46,553 nucleotides of DNA from Spirulina sp. CS-785/01 (GTDB lineage Bacteria > Cyanobacteriota > Cyanobacteriia > Cyanobacteriales > Spirulinaceae), in assembly GCF_028330525.1 (NCBI RefSeq), contig NZ_JAQMSD010000290.1:1-46553 (forward strand). The letters are read 5' to 3'. The position numbers and the translations under genes were made by a program. The notes below the pieces were generated by a model. The model was not told the DNA's origin. It saw nothing but the letters and a program-made list of their open reading frames with translations, and made no database searches. Positions 57 through 11,659 of this stretch are shown one piece after another; the first letter of the stretch is position 1, and each line of letters begins with the position of its first letter.

Positions 57-2702
57 ATGTCTTTTGTTGGCTTACATATTCACAGCGATTATAGTTTACT
101 AGATGGTGCGTCCCAATTACCTGCATTAGTTAATCGGGCGGCAGAGTTGGGAATGCCCGCTATTGCTTTGACGGATCATGGGGTGATGTATGGTGCGATC
201 GAATTATTAAAATTATGTCGAAGTCAGGGCGTTAAACCCATTATTGGCAATGAAATGTATGTCATTAATGGGGATATTACAGACCGAAAAAAACGCTACA
301 AACGCTATCACCAAGTTGTATTAGCGAAGAATACTCAAGGCTATCGTAATTTAACCAAATTAACCACCGTTTCCCACCTGCAAGGGATTCAAGGTCAAGG
401 GATTTTTTCTCGTCCTTGTATTAATAAAGAATTATTAGAACAATATCACGAAGGGTTAATTGTCACCAGTGCTTGTTTAGGGGGAGAAATCCCTCAATGT
501 ATCCTCAAAAATGACTTAGAACGGGCAAAAGATGTGGCAAAATGGTATAAGAATTTATTTGGGGATGATTATTATTTAGAAATTCAAGACCACGGTTCGC
601 CAGAAGACCGAATTGTTAATATTGAAATTGTTAAAATTGCCCAAGAGTTAGATATTAAAATCATTGCCACTAATGACTCTCATTTTATCTCTTGTAATGA
701 TGTAGAAGCCCATGATGCTTTATTGTGTATCCAAACTAAAAAACTCCTCACTGAGGATAAGCGACTCCGTTACAGTGGGACGGAATATCTAAAAACGGCA
801 GAAGAAATGATGGCCTTGTTCCGGGATCATTTACCGGATGATATTATTCAAACTGCGATCGCAAATACCCTAGAAGTTGCAGAAAAAGTCGAACCTTACA
901 AAATTCTCGGTGAACCCCGCATCCCCGACTACCCCATCCCCGCAGGATACACCCCCGACAGCTACCTGGAAGAAGTCACCTGGCAAGGACTCCTAGACCG
1001 TCTCAAACTCCGGTCTCGGTCCGAAGTGAGTCCCGACTATAAAGACCGTCTGGACTACGAACTGAAAATGATGCAACGGATGGGGTTTTCGACCTACTTT
1101 CTTGTAGTTTGGGACTATATTAAATACGCCAGAGATAATCATATTCCAGTCGGCCCAGGTCGAGGGTCTGCTGCGGGTTCATTAGTCGCGTATTCCTTAA
1201 AAATTACTAATGTTGATCCCGTCCATCATGGTCTTCTGTTTGAACGCTTCTTAAACCCCGAACGGAACTCCATGCCGGATATTGACACCGACTTTTGTAT
1301 TGAAAAACGGGATGAAATTATTAAATATGTCACCCGTAAATATGGAGAAGGCAACGTTGCCCAAATTATTACCTTTAACCGCATGACCTCCAAAGCGGTG
1401 TTAAAAGATGTGGCCAGAGTCTTAGATATTCCCTACTCAGAATCAGACCGTATGGCAAAATTAATCCCCGTCGCAAGGGGAAAACCCACGAAATTAAAGG
1501 TCATGATCTCCGATGATACTCCCTGTAAAGAGTTTAAGGAAAGATACGACACAGACCCCAAAGTGAAACGCTGGGTTGATATGGCCGTCCGCATCGAAGG
1601 AACAAATAAAACCTTCGGGGTTCATGCTGCGGGAGTGGTTATTTCTTCTCTCCCCCTCGATGAAGTAGTCCCCCTACAAAAGAACAATGAAGGGGCAGTG
1701 ATTACCCAATATTCTATGGATCAATTAGAGTCATTGGGACTCTTAAAAATGGACTTTTTGGGCTTAAAAAATCTCACCACCTTACAACGGGCCGCTGATT
1801 TAGTGAAACACAATCGAAATATTGATCTGAATCTAGATACATTGCCCTTAGAAGAACGAAAAGCCCTTGATATCCTCAAAAAAGGAACAGCCAAGAAACT
1901 CCCGCCGGATATTCAAAACACCCATGATTTATTTAAACAGGGCAACTTAGAAGGCATTTTCCAGCTAGAATCAGACGGAATGCGGCAAATTGTCCGAGAT
2001 TTAAAACCCTCTGGAATTGAAGATATTTCCTCAATTTTAGCCCTCTATCGACCCGGCCCCTTAGATGCGGGACTCATTCCTAAGTTTATTAACCGGAAAC
2101 ATGGGGATGAAAAAATTGAATATGAACATCCTTTATTAAGTACCATTCTTAATGAGACTTATGGGATTTTAGTCTATCAAGAACAGATCATGAAAACCGC
2201 CCAAGACTTAGCCGGATACTCCTTGGGCCAAGCCGACTTATTACGTCGGGCTATGGGGAAAAAGAAAATTGCCGAAATGCAGAAACACCGGGAATTATTT
2301 ATTGATGGGGCGACTAAAAATGGCATTGATCAAAGATTAGCAGAACATTTGTTCGAGCAGATGGTCAAGTTTGCGGAATATTGCCTCAGTTATGATACAA
2401 AAATTCTCACAGTTGAGTATGGGCCAATTGCCATTGGAAAAGTGGTAGAGGATCAGTTAGATTGTACTGTTTATAGTGTGGACTCCAATGGGTTTGTTTA
2501 CACCCAACCCATTGCCCAATGGCATCAACGGGGCCAGCAAGAGGTGTTTGAATATACCCTAGAAGATGGTTCAACTATTCGCGCTACCCCAGATCATAAA
2601 TTTATGACCGAAGCTGGAGAAATGTTACCCATTGAAGAAATTTTTAAGCGGGGTTTAGAGTTAAAGAAAAGTTACATTGAAGCCTTAGCAATAGCCGCCT
2701 AA
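57..2702 (+). CDS. dnaE: DNA polymerase III alpha subunit, N-terminal half, fused to the N-half of the split DnaE intein
   Basis: Replicative polymerase subunit. The 881-residue product starts with a PHP domain ([11 protein letters not shown], residues 7-17) and carries the polymerase aspartates in PDIDTDF. After FAEY the extein stops and a 106-residue tail begins at Cys776 (CLSYDTKIL), with intein block B TPDHKF, then a stop codon. This is the cyanobacterial split DnaE intein. The C-half intein plus the rest of DnaE must be encoded elsewhere and joined by protein trans-splicing; it is not in this window. The ATG follows a heptamer repeat directly, with no Shine-Dalgarno. The tail after GLELKK ([10 protein letters not shown]) does not resemble the N-half ends I remember and may vary freely. 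Confidence 0.97.
2382..2699 (+). other. Split intein N-half in DnaE
   Basis: Codes for 106 residues from the nucleophile Cys (TGC at 2382-2384) to the stop codon. Block A is CLSYDTKIL and block B is TPDHKF, with the conserved Thr and His. There is no endonuclease domain and no C-terminal splicing block, as expected for the naturally split form. Splicing needs the C-half encoded at another locus. Confidence 0.95.
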
Positions 2703-2765
2703 GTTTATATTAGTGATTGGTGATTTGTTTTGGGTGATCGGCAAAAACAGAGAACAGATCAAAAA

Positions 2766-2797
2766 ATTATCTATTATCCATTATCCATTACTAAACA
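2766..2797. repeat. TTATCCA heptamer repeat in front of galT
   Basis: The gap before galT contains CTATTATCCATTATCCATTA, a short heptamer array ending 7 bases before the galT ATG. It belongs to the same family of simple intergenic repeats as 1-56. No convincing Shine-Dalgarno lies between the array and the start codon. Confidence 0.7.
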
Positions 2798-3817
2798 ATG
2801 AACTCTGGTCAAATTCGTCTTAACCCCGTGACCCAAGAATGGGTTATTTATGCCCCGGCTCGGCGAAAACGTCCCCAAGACTTTCGCCAACCGGAACAAC
2901 AGGAAGATGCACCGGAAGAAGACCCTAACTGTCCTTTTTGTCCGATTAATAATGAGACCTTAGAACCTCGTATTATTGAAATTGCCAATGCCACCCATAC
3001 GGGATGGCAAACGCGAGTTGTTCCGAATAAATTCCCCATTTTAACCCCAGAACACAGTACCATGAGATGTACTAAGGGGATGTATATTGCCATGCAGGGC
3101 TATGGGACTCATGATGTGATTATTGAGAGTCCTAAGCATAATGAAACCCCGGCAACAATGCCATTGGAAGCCTTAGAAATTGTGATTGAAACCTACCATC
3201 AACGGTATTTGGAGTTAATGGCAACTAATACTAATATGATGGTCATTTTGTTTCGGAATCATGGGAAGAAAGCCGGGGCTTCTTTACGTCATCCTCACTC
3301 ACAAATTATTGGGACGGGAATTGTCCCTCAGCATTTTAGATGGCAAGAACAAGAAGCCCAACGGTATTATGATAAATGGGCAAATTGTTTATATTGTGAT
3401 ATCTTGAAACATGAATTGGATGAGGGCGATCGCATCGTTTTAGAAAACCATTCTTTTGTCGCATTAGTCCCCTATGCTGCCGATGTTCCTTTTGAAACTT
3501 GGATTATGCCGAAGCGTCATCAAGGGGATTTTGGCAGTATTTCTGAGGATGAAAAAGGGGATTTTGCGGCCATCCTTCAGCAGATGCTACGGAAGTTATA
3601 TTTTAAGTTAAATAATCCCGATTACAATTATGTCATTAATACGGCAGCTAGATATCGGGCCGAAGAACCCCAAGTCCACTGGTATTGTCAAATCAAACCC
3701 CGGTTTACGACTCCTGCGGGGTTTGAAATTGCTGCCGGAATTAATATTAATCCCTCGATTCCAGAGTTAGATGCAGCATTTTTAAGAGGAGATGATTCAG
3801 TAAACAGTAATCAGTGA
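2798..3817 (+). CDS. galT: Galactose-1-phosphate uridylyltransferase
   Basis: Leloir-pathway enzyme of the HIT superfamily that exchanges UMP between UDP-glucose and galactose-1-phosphate. The 339-residue product shows the zinc pair C45-PF-C48, a second likely zinc ligand H114 (SPKHNET), and the active-site motif HPHSQ at 165-169, where H167 should be the uridylylated nucleophile. PNKFP at 76-80 is also typical of the family. Length is normal. It stands alone between dnaE and the convergent chlB, with no other galactose genes nearby. A relaxed hexose-1-phosphate or ADP-glucose-type specificity cannot be excluded. Confidence 0.92.
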   Translation: MNSGQIRLNPVTQEWVIYAPARRKRPQDFRQPEQQEDAPEEDPNCPFCPINNETLEPRIIEIANATHTGWQTRVVPNKFPILTPEHSTMRCTKGMYIAMQGYGTHDVIIESPKHNETPATMPLEALEIVIETYHQRYLELMATNTNMMVILFRNHGKKAGASLRHPHSQIIGTGIVPQHFRWQEQEAQRYYDKWANCLYCDILKHELDEGDRIVLENHSFVALVPYAADVPFETWIMPKRHQGDFGSISEDEKGDFAAILQQMLRKLYFKLNNPDYNYVINTAARYRAEEPQVHWYCQIKPRFTTPAGFEIAAGININPSIPELDAAFLRGDDSVNSNQ

Positions 3818-3842
3818 TCACCAATTACCAATTACCAATTAC
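3812..3842. repeat. TTACCAA repeat between the convergent galT and chlB stop codons
   Basis: Three CCAATTA units in a row fill the 21-bp gap between the stop codons of galT (+) and chlB (-) and run into the last codons of chlB. No terminator hairpin is visible between these convergent genes. Confidence 0.65.
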
Positions 3843-8408: not shown

Positions 8409-8990
8409 TTAAGATTTAAGTTTTTGCAAGATTTCTTGGGTGATGGTGTCTGGGGGGTGTTCTGCGTTGATTTTAAGTAGTTTTCCTCTTGCGCCATAAT
8501 ATTCGAGGATGGGGATGGTGCGATCGCGGAAATGTTGGATGCGACGTTGGAGGATGTCGGGGGTGTCATCGGCCCGCGATCGCGTAGCGTCTCCGGAGGA
8601 GAATCGCGCTTTGGAACGTTCCCGCATCACTTCTTCACTCACCTCCAGATATACCGCAGTGGTGAGATATTGGCCAAAGTCACTGAGAACAAAATCCAAC
8701 TCCTCTGCTTGAAAGGCTGTGCGGGGGTATCCTTCCATCATCCACCCTTGGTTCACATCCTCCTGTAACAACCGTAAGCGCATAAACTGAATCATGACAT
8801 TATCGGGAACAAGTTCCCCTTTTTCTACATAGGGTTGTGCGCTAGTTCCCAGTCGAGTTTGTTGCGCGATCGCATCCCGAAGAACATCCCCCACCGCGAT
8901 ACTCGGCAACTGCAACGCTTCACTCAACCGTCGTAACTGCGTCCCCTTCCCCGAACCCGGGCCACCTAATAAAATAATCCTCACCAGCAA
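8409..8990 (-). CDS. adk: Adenylate kinase with a short in-frame insertion in the LID region
   Basis: Catalyses AMP + ATP to 2 ADP. The 193-residue product has the P-loop GGPGSGKGTQ (9-18), the NMP-binding GDVLR, and EGYPRT (86-91). It is the short-LID type without a zinc module. Residues 129-138 (RFSSGDATRS) lie where relatives read KARGRADDTPD, and the DNA here (8576-8607) is a palindrome with HIP1 ends. This looks like a repeat inserted in frame. The rest of the family pattern continues normally (RADDTPDILQRR). The reading frame is intact, so the enzyme is probably functional. First gene of the leftward adk-rph group. Confidence 0.94.
   Translation of the reverse strand: MLVRIILLGGPGSGKGTQLRRLSEALQLPSIAVGDVLRDAIAQQTRLGTSAQPYVEKGELVPDNVMIQFMRLRLLQEDVNQGWMMEGYPRTAFQAEELDFVLSDFGQYLTTAVYLEVSEEVMRERSKARFSSGDATRSRADDTPDILQRRIQHFRDRTIPILEYYGARGKLLKINAEHPPDTITQEILQKLKS
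8576..8607. repeat. HIP1-ended palindromic repeat inside adk
   Basis: About 32 bp starting GCGATCGCG, with a central CTCCGGAG palindrome and an ATCGC end that pairs with the opening GCGAT. I recall sequences of this type (GGAGACGCTACGCGATCGC on the other strand) as dispersed small repeats in many cyanobacterial genomes. Here it is read in frame as part of adk and supplies roughly ten residues of the LID loop. Confidence 0.7.
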
Positions 8991-9187: not shown

Positions 9188-10906
9188 GTGATTCAAAACG
9201 ACATCTGGATCAAAGCAATGGCGCAACAAGGCATGATAACGCCATTTGAGTCCACCTTAGTACGACGCATTGAAGACTCCCACGTAATTTCCTACGGTTT
9301 GAGTAGCTTCGGCTATGATATTCGTTTATCAACCGCAGAATTTCGTATTTTTCGCCATATTCCGGGAACGGTTGTCGATCCCAAGAATTTCACCCCGGCC
9401 AATTTAGACCCCGTACAATTACATCACGATGAAAACGGCAGTTTCTTCATTTTACCAGCCCATTCTTATGGTTTAGGAGTCGCCTTAGAACGGCTTGATG
9501 TTCCTGATAATATTACGGTACTTTGTATTGGGAAATCGACTTATGCAAGATGTTTTCGGGGGGATACACGAGTTGCTTTAGTGGATGGCACTGCACCCAC
9601 CCTAGAAGAAATGGCCAAACGTGCAGAACAAGGAGAACAGTTTTGGGGATATAGTATTGGGCCTCATGGTCGTTTAATTGTCACCTTACTGGAAAATCCT
9701 CGTTATATCGGCAGAGATTCCTTAGTCGAAGTCGTCTTAGATAATAATGAGTCTATTTTCTGTACCCCAGACCATCAATTTATGAGACGAGATGGCAGAA
9801 TGGTTGCGGCACAAGACTTAAAGCCATCGGATTCTCTAATGCCACTTTATCGGCAATTAGAGCGAGGGTATGAAATGGTGTATCAACCCCTTAATGGCTA
9901 TCTTTATCCAACTCATCGCCTCAGTGATGAGTGGAATCTTCGCCATCTTATTTATCAAGATGAACCCAACACCCATCGCCATCATATCGATCATGATCGC
10001 CTTAATAATTGTCCGTGGAATATTATACGGATGAATGAATCGGAGCATATTCGATTACACAATAAGATCAATTATGGGGCTGATTTTGATCCCGATGAAC
10101 ATAGTGAGTCTATTAAACAAGCGATCGCCACTTTAAAAGACGATCCTCAATGGCGAGAAAGGTTTTCTGAACAACAACGTCAAAGGGCGGTTAATTTTTG
10201 GCATAATCCAGAATATGCAGCAACCCGTGAAGCGTTACTAGAACGTCGTCGTAATTGTTCAGACTCAACGCGCCAAGCTCATCGGGAGGCGATGTTACGT
10301 TATTATCAATCTGAACAAGCCAGAGCCTTAACTGCCAAACAGTCCAAGCAAGCATGGGATGCGGATAATGGCACGAGACGAGCAAAACAATCACAAATTA
10401 TGAAGTCCCTAGCAGATTCAACGAGAACTCGTCACGATATTACCGCCGATGTGGTGCGTACTGCGTTGGATCAAACAGGTTCAATTCGAGGGGCCGCTCG
10501 ATTACTGAATTGCGATCGCTCCGTATTTCGGCGATTTCCAGAAGTTTTACACGAGTTTCGAGGACAAAAATTTAAAAATCATAAAGTGGTTGCCGTTCGG
10601 GATGTTCCAGGGACTCATGATGTATATTGTTTGACTGTTCCAGAAGCAGGAAACTTTGCGCTCGAATCTGGTGTTTTTGTCCACAATTGCGGATTAATTG
10701 CCAATTTAACGCCCGCCGAAGCCGGATGGCGCGGGCATTTAACTCTCGAATTTTCTAACTCATCCAGTGCCGATTGTCGTATCTACGCTAATGAAGGAGT
10801 TGTGCAGCTTTTGTTCCTAGAAGGAGAACCCTGCGAGACCAGTTATCAAAAGCGACAAGGCAAATATCAAGACCAACCAGAAAAAGTTATTTTTTCCAAG
10901 GTTTAA
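9188..10906 (+). CDS. dcd: dCTP deaminase interrupted by an HNH intein
   Basis: Deaminates dCTP to dUTP, feeding dTMP synthesis. I chose the GTG at 9188 because Dcd proteins start like VIQNDIWIKAM; an in-frame GTG at 9140 would add 16 residues. The precursor is 572 residues: an N-extein of 121 residues ending GKSTYAR, a 379-residue intein, and a C-extein beginning CGLIANLTPAEAGWRGHLTL with the catalytic-glutamate region LEFSN. The spliced enzyme is 193 residues, normal for the family. The intein sits right behind the active-site Ser/Arg motif, so the unspliced protein should be inactive. thyX follows 33 bp downstream. Confidence 0.95.
   Translation: MIQNDIWIKAMAQQGMITPFESTLVRRIEDSHVISYGLSSFGYDIRLSTAEFRIFRHIPGTVVDPKNFTPANLDPVQLHHDENGSFFILPAHSYGLGVALERLDVPDNITVLCIGKSTYARCFRGDTRVALVDGTAPTLEEMAKRAEQGEQFWGYSIGPHGRLIVTLLENPRYIGRDSLVEVVLDNNESIFCTPDHQFMRRDGRMVAAQDLKPSDSLMPLYRQLERGYEMVYQPLNGYLYPTHRLSDEWNLRHLIYQDEPNTHRHHIDHDRLNNCPWNIIRMNESEHIRLHNKINYGADFDPDEHSESIKQAIATLKDDPQWRERFSEQQRQRAVNFWHNPEYAATREALLERRRNCSDSTRQAHREAMLRYYQSEQARALTAKQSKQAWDADNGTRRAKQSQIMKSLADSTRTRHDITADVVRTALDQTGSIRGAARLLNCDRSVFRRFPEVLHEFRGQKFKNHKVVAVRDVPGTHDVYCLTVPEAGNFALESGVFVHNCGLIANLTPAEAGWRGHLTLEFSNSSSADCRIYANEGVVQLLFLEGEPCETSYQKRQGKYQDQPEKVIFSKV
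9551..10687 (+). other. Dcd intein with HNH homing-endonuclease domain
   Basis: 379 residues from Cys1 (CFRGDTRV, block A) to the terminal HN (GVFVHN, block G), followed by Cys+1 of the C-extein. Block B is CTPDHQF at intein residues 71-77. Between the splicing blocks lies an HNH nuclease of the HNH_3 kind (HRHHIDHDRLNNCPWNI from residue 143, then SEHIRLHNK). After a charged stretch comes a helix-turn-helix-like segment (TGSIRGAARLLNCDRSVFRR, residues 309-328), plausibly DNA-binding. All splicing residues are present, so both splicing and homing look potentially active. Confidence 0.93.
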
Positions 10907-10939: not shown

Positions 10940-11659
10940 ATGGATAAATTTCGAGTCGAACTCCTCAACGCTACCGTTAACCCCCAACAATTAATTTGGT
11001 TAGCCATGCACCAAGACTATTCCGAAGGTTTTGTTTGGGATAGTCGAGAAAAAGTCCCCGATGAAACCAAAGCTGGAGAATTAGTCATTAAACATTTACT
11101 CTCTGGAAATAAAGGCCATTATGGACCCTTAGAACATCCACAAATTGTGTTGAATGTTGGCTTTTTTCCCCACTCTATGATGCAGCAAATTCGGACTCAT
11201 CGCCATATCTCAATGGATGTACAAAGTTTTAGGTACTCAGGACGGCGTATCATGGATGTTGTGGAAGGAAAACGAAATATTGAAGAAGTTTTTTACTTGC
11301 GGCCTGTGGGAAGTTATACCAACCGTCAGGGGAAAAAATATGATTACACCGAAGAACAACGGCAAGAAGATCTAAACTGGTGTTTAGAAGCGTGTAAACG
11401 GTATAAACAGCGTATTGATCAAGGAATGGCAGAAGAACACGCGAGGGGGATTATTCCTTTTGATGCAAGACAGCATTTTGTTCTTAGTGGGAATTTACGC
11501 TCTTTAATGCACTTGCTTGATTTACGCTGGAAAAAAGATGCTCAACTCGAAGCACAAAAGTTTTGTGAGTTACTCTTTGAGCATTTTCAAAACTGGACTC
11601 CCGAAATTGCTAACTGGTATCTAGAAAATCGTGCGAAAAAAGCGCGACTGTCTCCTTAA
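10940..11659 (+). CDS. thyX: FAD-dependent thymidylate synthase
   Basis: Makes dTMP from dUMP using flavin, NADPH and methylene-tetrahydrofolate. The 239-residue product contains the ThyX signature region RTHRHISMDVQSFRYS at 85-100, where the usual RHRxxSxNxxSxRY has Asp in place of the first Asn; the flavin- and substrate-binding Arg and Ser residues are kept. It follows dcd by 33 bp, so the pair provides dCTP-to-dUTP and dUMP-to-dTMP steps; a dUTPase is still needed and is not in the window. Confidence 0.96.
   Translation: MDKFRVELLNATVNPQQLIWLAMHQDYSEGFVWDSREKVPDETKAGELVIKHLLSGNKGHYGPLEHPQIVLNVGFFPHSMMQQIRTHRHISMDVQSFRYSGRRIMDVVEGKRNIEEVFYLRPVGSYTNRQGKKYDYTEEQRQEDLNWCLEACKRYKQRIDQGMAEEHARGIIPFDARQHFVLSGNLRSLMHLLDLRWKKDAQLEAQKFCELLFEHFQNWTPEIANWYLENRAKKARLSP

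Follow-up and report, generated by a model that had tools for sequence, protein, structure and literature searches.

A predicted class 1 HNH intein in the dCTP deaminase gene of Spirulina sp. CS-785/01 and its relatives at the same insertion site in bacteria and phages

We analysed a window of 46,553 nucleotides, that is, the whole stretch of DNA under study, from the genome of Spirulina sp. CS-785/01 (5.4 Mb, 351 contigs, completeness 99.99). A single open frame in this window encodes the N-terminal half of dCTP deaminase (Dcd), an intein and the C-terminal half of Dcd. Genes resembling adk and rph (named by eye) lie upstream, and thyX follows directly downstream; this arrangement recurs around empty dcd alleles, for example those of loci L150 and L151. 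The features were placed as follows.

8409-8990, reverse strand: adenylate kinase-like ORF upstream of dcd, named by eye
9188-9550, forward strand: N-extein of Dcd, 121 aa from a probable GTG start to GKSTYAR (DCD match, alignment to solved Dcd structures)
9551-10687, forward strand: intein, 379 aa, from Cys1 to His-Asn (translation, profile matches, model, Foldseek)
9551-9886, forward strand: N part of the HINT splicing domain, residues 1-112, with CTPDH at 71-75 (invariant columns, beta structure in the model)
9956-10078, forward strand: HNH nuclease segment, residues 136-176, HRHHIDHDRLNN...EHIRLHN (PHROGs HNH families, invariant H/D/N residues)
10439-10564, forward strand: helix-turn-helix (HTH) segment, residues 297-338, GSIRGAARLLNCDRSVFRRFPE (identity among Dcd inteins, helices in the model)
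10577-10687, forward strand: C part of the HINT splicing domain, residues 343-379, NHKV...YCLTV...GVFVHN (profile match, alignment)
10688-10906, forward strand: Dcd C-extein, 72 aa with Cys+1 as first residue, and stop codon (DCD and TIGR matches, structure alignment)
10940-11659, forward strand: uninterrupted thyX, the next gene of the pathway (full-length match 1-239); its name is backed by a homologue in viral contig L246 that matches Thy1

The start codon of dcd is probably the GTG at 9188, which reads VIQNDIWIK, since homologues begin with MIKND or VIKND at that point; the stop codon occupies 10904-10906. Counted from this GTG, the predicted spliced protein has 121 + 72 = 193 residues, the length given in the initial annotation of the locus. 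The whole frame scored 97.4 with TIGR02274 (dCTP_deam; curated cut-off 92.8), which places the host protein among the dCTP deaminases, and 66.7 with Pfam DCD (cut-off 27), and the host model matched on both sides of the in-frame insert, as it does when the insert is an intein. The N-extein aligned with the solved Dcd structures 4dhk and 3km3. The insertion had been placed at a conserved motif, and on sequence it does lie directly after GKSTYAR; the Arg preceding the junction corresponds, by alignment to 1xs1, to residue 115 of E. coli Dcd, presumably an active-site residue. A genome-wide search of CS-785/01 found no other dcd; a second, uninterrupted copy would have told against the initial annotation.

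The segment from 9551 to 10687 translated without a stop into 379 residues (CFRGD...GVFVHN), and the boundaries proposed earlier were exact to the base. The residues of a class 1 intein were found in place: Cys1 as the nucleophile, T72-P-D-H75 as the block B TxxH, and the terminal pair H378-N379 followed by Cys+1. Scores on the frame exceeded the cut-offs for TIGR01445 (intein_Nterm, 32.8 against 24.5), TIGR01443 (intein_Cterm, 27.1 against 15.6) and Pfam Intein_splicing (60.2 against 35.8), in agreement with the extein/intein/extein layout and full complement of splicing residues first described. Edges of the HINT domain were placed by reference to deletions in mini-inteins. An AlphaFold model of the intein, made with 25 sequences, had a mean pLDDT of 81, with mostly 94-98 in the blocks of the splicing domain. 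The best Foldseek matches of this model were the intein structures NpuDnaE, SspDnaB, SspDnaE, NpuDnaB and MtuRecA, and all 40 PDB chains at E<=0.001 were inteins or related Hint domains (Hedgehog, BIL), indicating a HINT fold. TM values normalised to the query were low (0.13-0.33) because most of the nuclease region has no structural partner. Counted against splicing were Cys360 and Gly367 in block F, where the GyrB relatives have Asp and His in 13 of 13 cases. The same Cys and Gly are, however, common to all 13 inteins at this Dcd site (Dcd-b inteins), including that of cyanophage CL131, and the Cys is also found in 10 RtcB inteins. Class 3 inteins lack a nucleophile at residue 1 and carry a WCT motif; this class was ruled out, as Cys1 is present, Phe77 stands at the presumed place of the block B Trp and Val precedes His378, with Cys360 located in block F.

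The nuclease region contains both segments recognised in the initial annotation. PHROGs HNH families matched the first of them (best E 2.3e-6), and H144, H145, D147, N152, N153, N157, H166 and H170, which include the motif residues of HNH inteins, were invariant in all seven full-length inteins aligned. Pfam HNH_3 missed the CS-785/01 intein at E<=1 and matched one of the seven family members, and the HNH assignment is therefore based on the PHROGs matches and the invariant residues. The HTH-like segment is helical in the AlphaFold model; the linker between it and the HNH segment is also helical, at low confidence (pLDDT <50 at residues 231-242). Identity in the HTH segment was 81-90% with five other full-length cellular Dcd inteins, and 59% and 54% with two full-length phage Dcd inteins, the former being that of CL131. 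Among 39 inteins of other host proteins it had no match at E<0.1, although many of these matched the HNH segment. It was absent from mini-inteins, the intein of viral contig L245 gave no HTH match, and Pfam HTH_28 matched one of the seven family members (E 0.11). Since matches among the inteins compared were confined to Dcd inteins, the HTH segment is probably the part that reads the target at the dcd site.

Insertions after STYAR in cyanobacterial Dcd proteins, which the initial annotation had suggested looking for, were found in at least eight cyanobacterial genomes: CS-785/01 itself (G000), G350, G366, G380, G390 (locus L033, Spirulina sp. CCY15215), G394, G398 and G402. The same site (STYAR/C) was occupied in a Herpetosiphonaceae MAG of the Chloroflexota (L039), a Pyrinomonadaceae MAG of the Acidobacteriota (L047), cyanophage CL131 and two IMG/VR contigs, L246 and the divergent L245; dcd of L246 adjoins ORFs that resemble terminase and portal genes by eye. 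Eleven distinct alleles from different organisms thus interrupt Dcd at one residue, three of them in the single-contig genomes G350, G366 and G380, and two more are in viral contigs, which excludes chance. Of the eight cyanobacterial copies, six retain the nuclease and are 379-384 aa long. Four of the 11 alleles (G398, G402, L039 and L047) are mini-inteins of 152-194 aa that have no nuclease and differ in their deletion junctions in the alignment. No uninterrupted dcd was found in the eight cyanobacterial carriers, each of which gave, among the matches listed, just the two parts of a single split gene. The Pyrinomonadaceae locus has an extra, broken dcd: a diverged copy truncated after STYAR, the insertion site, lies just upstream of the occupied one (2147-2563 and 2686-3834), and could stem from homing repair that went wrong or be a chimera created in assembly. 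A frame-broken dcd remnant was also seen at L180:3953-4297 (G211), in the order of CS-785/01.

In a sample of the phylum, at least seven of 157 Dcd-positive genomes had an insert in Dcd, four at STYAR/C, two at a second site and one at a third; all belong to the order of CS-785/01, which contributed 62 Dcd-positive genomes by hand count. Within the family, at least three of 11 Dcd-positive genomes were occupied, CS-785/01 included. These numbers are minima, as the survey counted splits visible in the matches listed. At GK/STYAR, a 361-aa intein with LAGLIDADG_3 was found in L178:3277-4971 (G125), and the same site is interrupted in L179 (G153). At TPAEA/../SWRG, L177:4054-5694 (G119) has a 348-aa insert with a LAGLIDADG_3 match and no match to the Pfam intein model; among the inserts at other sites, the Pfam search covered these two, L178 and L177. 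A search for a second copy of the intein in the CS-785/01 genome returned only itself. The plasmid search yielded a single record, a GyrB intein in Bernardetia, and hence no plasmid vehicle. A hypothetical protein of Bacillus phage SP-15 matched at 25%.

The initial annotation regarded dCTP deaminase as a little-known intein host in cyanobacteria. No report of a chromosomal Dcd intein appeared among the openly readable papers examined, and those on PaBG, prasinoviruses and chloroviruses place inteins in other genes. Cyanophages do offer a precedent: the dCTP deaminase of vB_AphaS-CL131 (gp069, MG209611) carries an intein that is reported in PMC6293099 to self-excise on expression in E. coli, as judged by SDS-PAGE. 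That intein shares with the CS-785/01 element the host protein, the STYAR/C site, the HNH type and the block F residues. It differs in residing in a phage gene, in overall sequence (37% identity), in length (352 aa) and in ending with Lys-Asn rather than His-Asn; we placed its Cys1 at aa 132, while PMC6293099 gives the insert as aa 133-483. HNH inteins of GyrB (for example L034-L038, L040-L045) and RtcB (for example L049, L051, L053, L067, L079; NCBIfam NF052663, RtcB_rel_intein2) belong to the same HINT family at about 30-36% identity, and most match the HNH segment, but they occupy other hosts and sites and have no matching HTH segment, and the GyrB members have Asp and His in block F. Hosts of the non-Dcd inteins were named from flanking motifs, except for one annotated gyrB. 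Spirulina sp. CCY15215 carries a GyrB-type intein (L042) beside its Dcd intein (L033), both of this HINT family.

The CS-785/01 element is thus of a known kind, a Dcd intein at the site used in CL131, where splicing is reported. What sequence comparison adds is a chromosomal, cross-phylum family of alleles at one site with occupied, empty and mini forms and a candidate target-reading domain. It also adds two more sites of insertion in Dcd, whose neighbour thyX is itself split in several genomes. What had been a lone phage curiosity can now be traced as a mobile element, which interrupts an enzyme of the nucleotide pool in several lineages of cyanobacteria, in phages and in MAGs from two further bacterial phyla.

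In a tree of the HINT domains of 52 inteins, the ten cellular Dcd-b alleles formed one clade (99/99) and the full-length phage alleles of CL131 and L246 a separate one (100/99); the two clades were joined at 94/78, short of a starred branch. The CS-785/01 intein therefore shares both insertion point and descent with the other Dcd-b inteins. The L245 intein was a long branch of unsure position, and branching within the cellular clade was poorly resolved. As the phage copies CL131 and L246 branch apart, no direct donor was identified. The closest intein to that of CS-785/01 was from G366, a member of another family, with 82% identity overall and 91% in HINT, whereas Dcd ranked in the opposite order, with 82% identity to Spirulina and 74% to G366. 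Identity to the Herpetosiphonaceae copy was 79% in HINT and 50% in Dcd, and to the Pyrinomonadaceae copy 65% and 48%, respectively. Within one genus code, G394 is occupied and G389 empty, with exteins that are 98.4% identical in amino acids and 92.7% in DNA. The extein tree, whose bootstrap had not settled, comprised 76 rows, a subset of loci in relation to the 157 Dcd-positive genomes of the phylum sample; redundant L185 and L186 (twice) were removed from 79, and L180 and L184 (broken or partial) and L155 (C-half motif filter) were left out. On this tree the 11 occupied rows required 10 changes; shuffled labels required 10.5 on average, and 182 of 500 shuffles gave a count as low. The patchy spread, together with the incongruence between intein and extein, suggests that the intein is mobile.

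Dating of transfers by synonymous changes failed, as pairs were saturated, except for G350/G380. For this pair, dS was 0.95 in the extein, 0.45 in HINT and 0.54 in the nuclease region, a difference that speaks for mobility but that codon usage could affect, and dN/dS was 0.06, 0.12 and 0.13, respectively. All three parts are under purifying selection in this pair.

The residue after the junction was Cys in 11 of 11 occupied alleles. In the 65 rows without a STYAR/C intein, three of which carry an insert at another Dcd site, it was C in 35, V in 13, A in 10, I in 6 and T in 1 (Fisher p 0.003 for Cys, with relatedness ignored). Cys in every occupied allele would be expected anyway if splicing needs it. 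In alleles without the intein, positions +1 and +3 covary: Leu+3 accompanied V, I or T in 18 of 20 rows and C or A in two of 45. CS-785/01 and L033 combine Cys+1 with Leu+3, a hint that their Cys may have been gained on a VGLI background, in a part of the tree that is poorly resolved. The haloarchaeal MCM-d intein offers a parallel: according to PMC10643990, most of its empty alleles have a +1 residue that blocks splicing, and co-conversion is needed. Empty Dcd alleles are likewise often unsuited at +1, but the contrast is Pro against Ser in MCM-d and V, A, I or T against Cys in Dcd-b, for which co-conversion is a suggestion.

By sequence comparison, then, the element has intact splicing residues, HNH and HTH segments, a fixed insertion site and a patchy spread. 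We consider it very probable that it is a class 1, full-length splicing intein in the sole dcd found in the genome. After translation, the HINT domain would carry out an N-S acyl shift at Cys1, transesterification to Cys+1 and cyclisation of Asn379, thereby releasing the 193-residue Dcd; the precursor, interrupted directly behind the conserved STYAR motif, would be inactive. The nuclease is likely to be still active, and we infer that it serves homing: guided by the HTH segment, it would cut intein-free dcd at STYAR/C, and repair of the cut would copy the intein in. In recipients whose +1 residue is not Cys, repair would have to import the Cys as well (co-conversion). Phages may have been the vehicle, although this is a guess. 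With occupied and empty alleles in one genus, natural mini-inteins and a polymorphic +1 residue, this small enzyme lends itself to tests of the homing cycle and of co-conversion.

The nuclease could also be dead, leaving a splicing-competent intein as baggage of past homing, a reading that differs from the preferred one in the nuclease alone. The failure of Pfam HNH_3 on the CS-785/01 member, the loss of the nuclease in four of 11 related alleles and the low-confidence linker between HNH and HTH are in its favour. We nevertheless regard it as unlikely, given that the HNH residues are invariant in all seven full-length members, that the frame has no stops or breaks, and that dN of the nuclease region against its closest relative is low (0.153 at dS 1.5, near saturation). 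A draft genome of 351 contigs may contain assembly or annotation artefacts, but the same layout occurs in three single-contig genomes and in the isolated and sequenced phage CL131, and an artefact is scarcely credible.

Other readings concern splicing itself. If the insertion did not splice, dcd would be inactivated and the organism would live without Dcd, as many genomes of the phylum sample, in which none was found, might be thought to do. Against this, the exteins are intact and conserved, the splicing residues are present, the CL131 homologue is reported to splice (PMC6293099), and none of the eight carriers has an uninterrupted copy among the matches listed. CS-785/01, moreover, has neither ThyA nor a PF00692 dUTPase, and its PF00383 proteins are only TadA-like and RibD-like; we judge this reading highly improbable. 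Splicing might instead be conditional, with redox, temperature or nucleotide state gating dTTP synthesis. The intein adjoins a conserved active-site motif and has Cys360 within its splicing domain (as RtcB inteins do), several other genomes have an insert in thyX, the adjacent gene of the pathway, and the splicing part is retained where the nuclease is gone. Presence on the Dcd tree is, however, no more clustered than chance, a scatter that fits a selfish element and not a conserved regulator, and one genus contains both an occupied and an empty allele. Such a switch is therefore very unlikely, and a splicing, homing intein remains our preferred reading.

Spliced Dcd may plausibly supply dUTP to thyX. 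The CS-785/01 genome searches found no ThyA and no PF00692 dUTPase, and its PF00383 deaminases were two, one TadA-like and one RibD-like (named by eye). As no other dcd was found either, loss of splicing would, judged by the families searched, probably be harmful in this organism. In place of a PF00692 dUTPase, Dcd may itself also yield dUMP or another dUTPase may serve, and what reaches ThyX may be dUMP formed by Dcd or by another enzyme. By reading of the table, strong PF00692 matches (E<1e-20) were present in 10 of the 62 Dcd genomes of the same order, including the carrier G350. Of the 386 genomes sampled across the phylum, which also cover other classes, 229 gave no Dcd match, at least 20 of them in the order of CS-785/01, so Dcd need not be essential everywhere.

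ThyX inteins are known from mycobacteriophages (PMC5050341) and from cyanobacteria, as Ter ThyX (PMC3620165). Ter ThyX resembles the CS-785/01 intein in occupying a dTTP-pathway gene that adjoins dcd; it differs as an intein and in its host gene, thyX of CS-785/01 having none. That dcd-thyX is an intein hotspot shared by phages and hosts, with at least three Dcd and two ThyX sites, with Dcd-b crossing phyla with its own HTH and with splicing gating thymidylate supply for both, is a doubtful proposition that we regard as improbable. A hand count of the phylum sample gave at least 20 genomes whose thyX matches as two pieces within one long frame. Near dcd, thyX was interrupted as SFDVQ/C...VHN/SFRYTG in L181 (G366), L177 (G119), L142 (G054), L150 (G393) and L188 (G157). 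Viral contig L246 (2721-4475 and 5152-7245) has, besides its interrupted dcd, a thyX interrupted at another site, GHYG/C, whose insert gave no intein match in Pfam. In G366 and G119, both dcd and thyX are interrupted.
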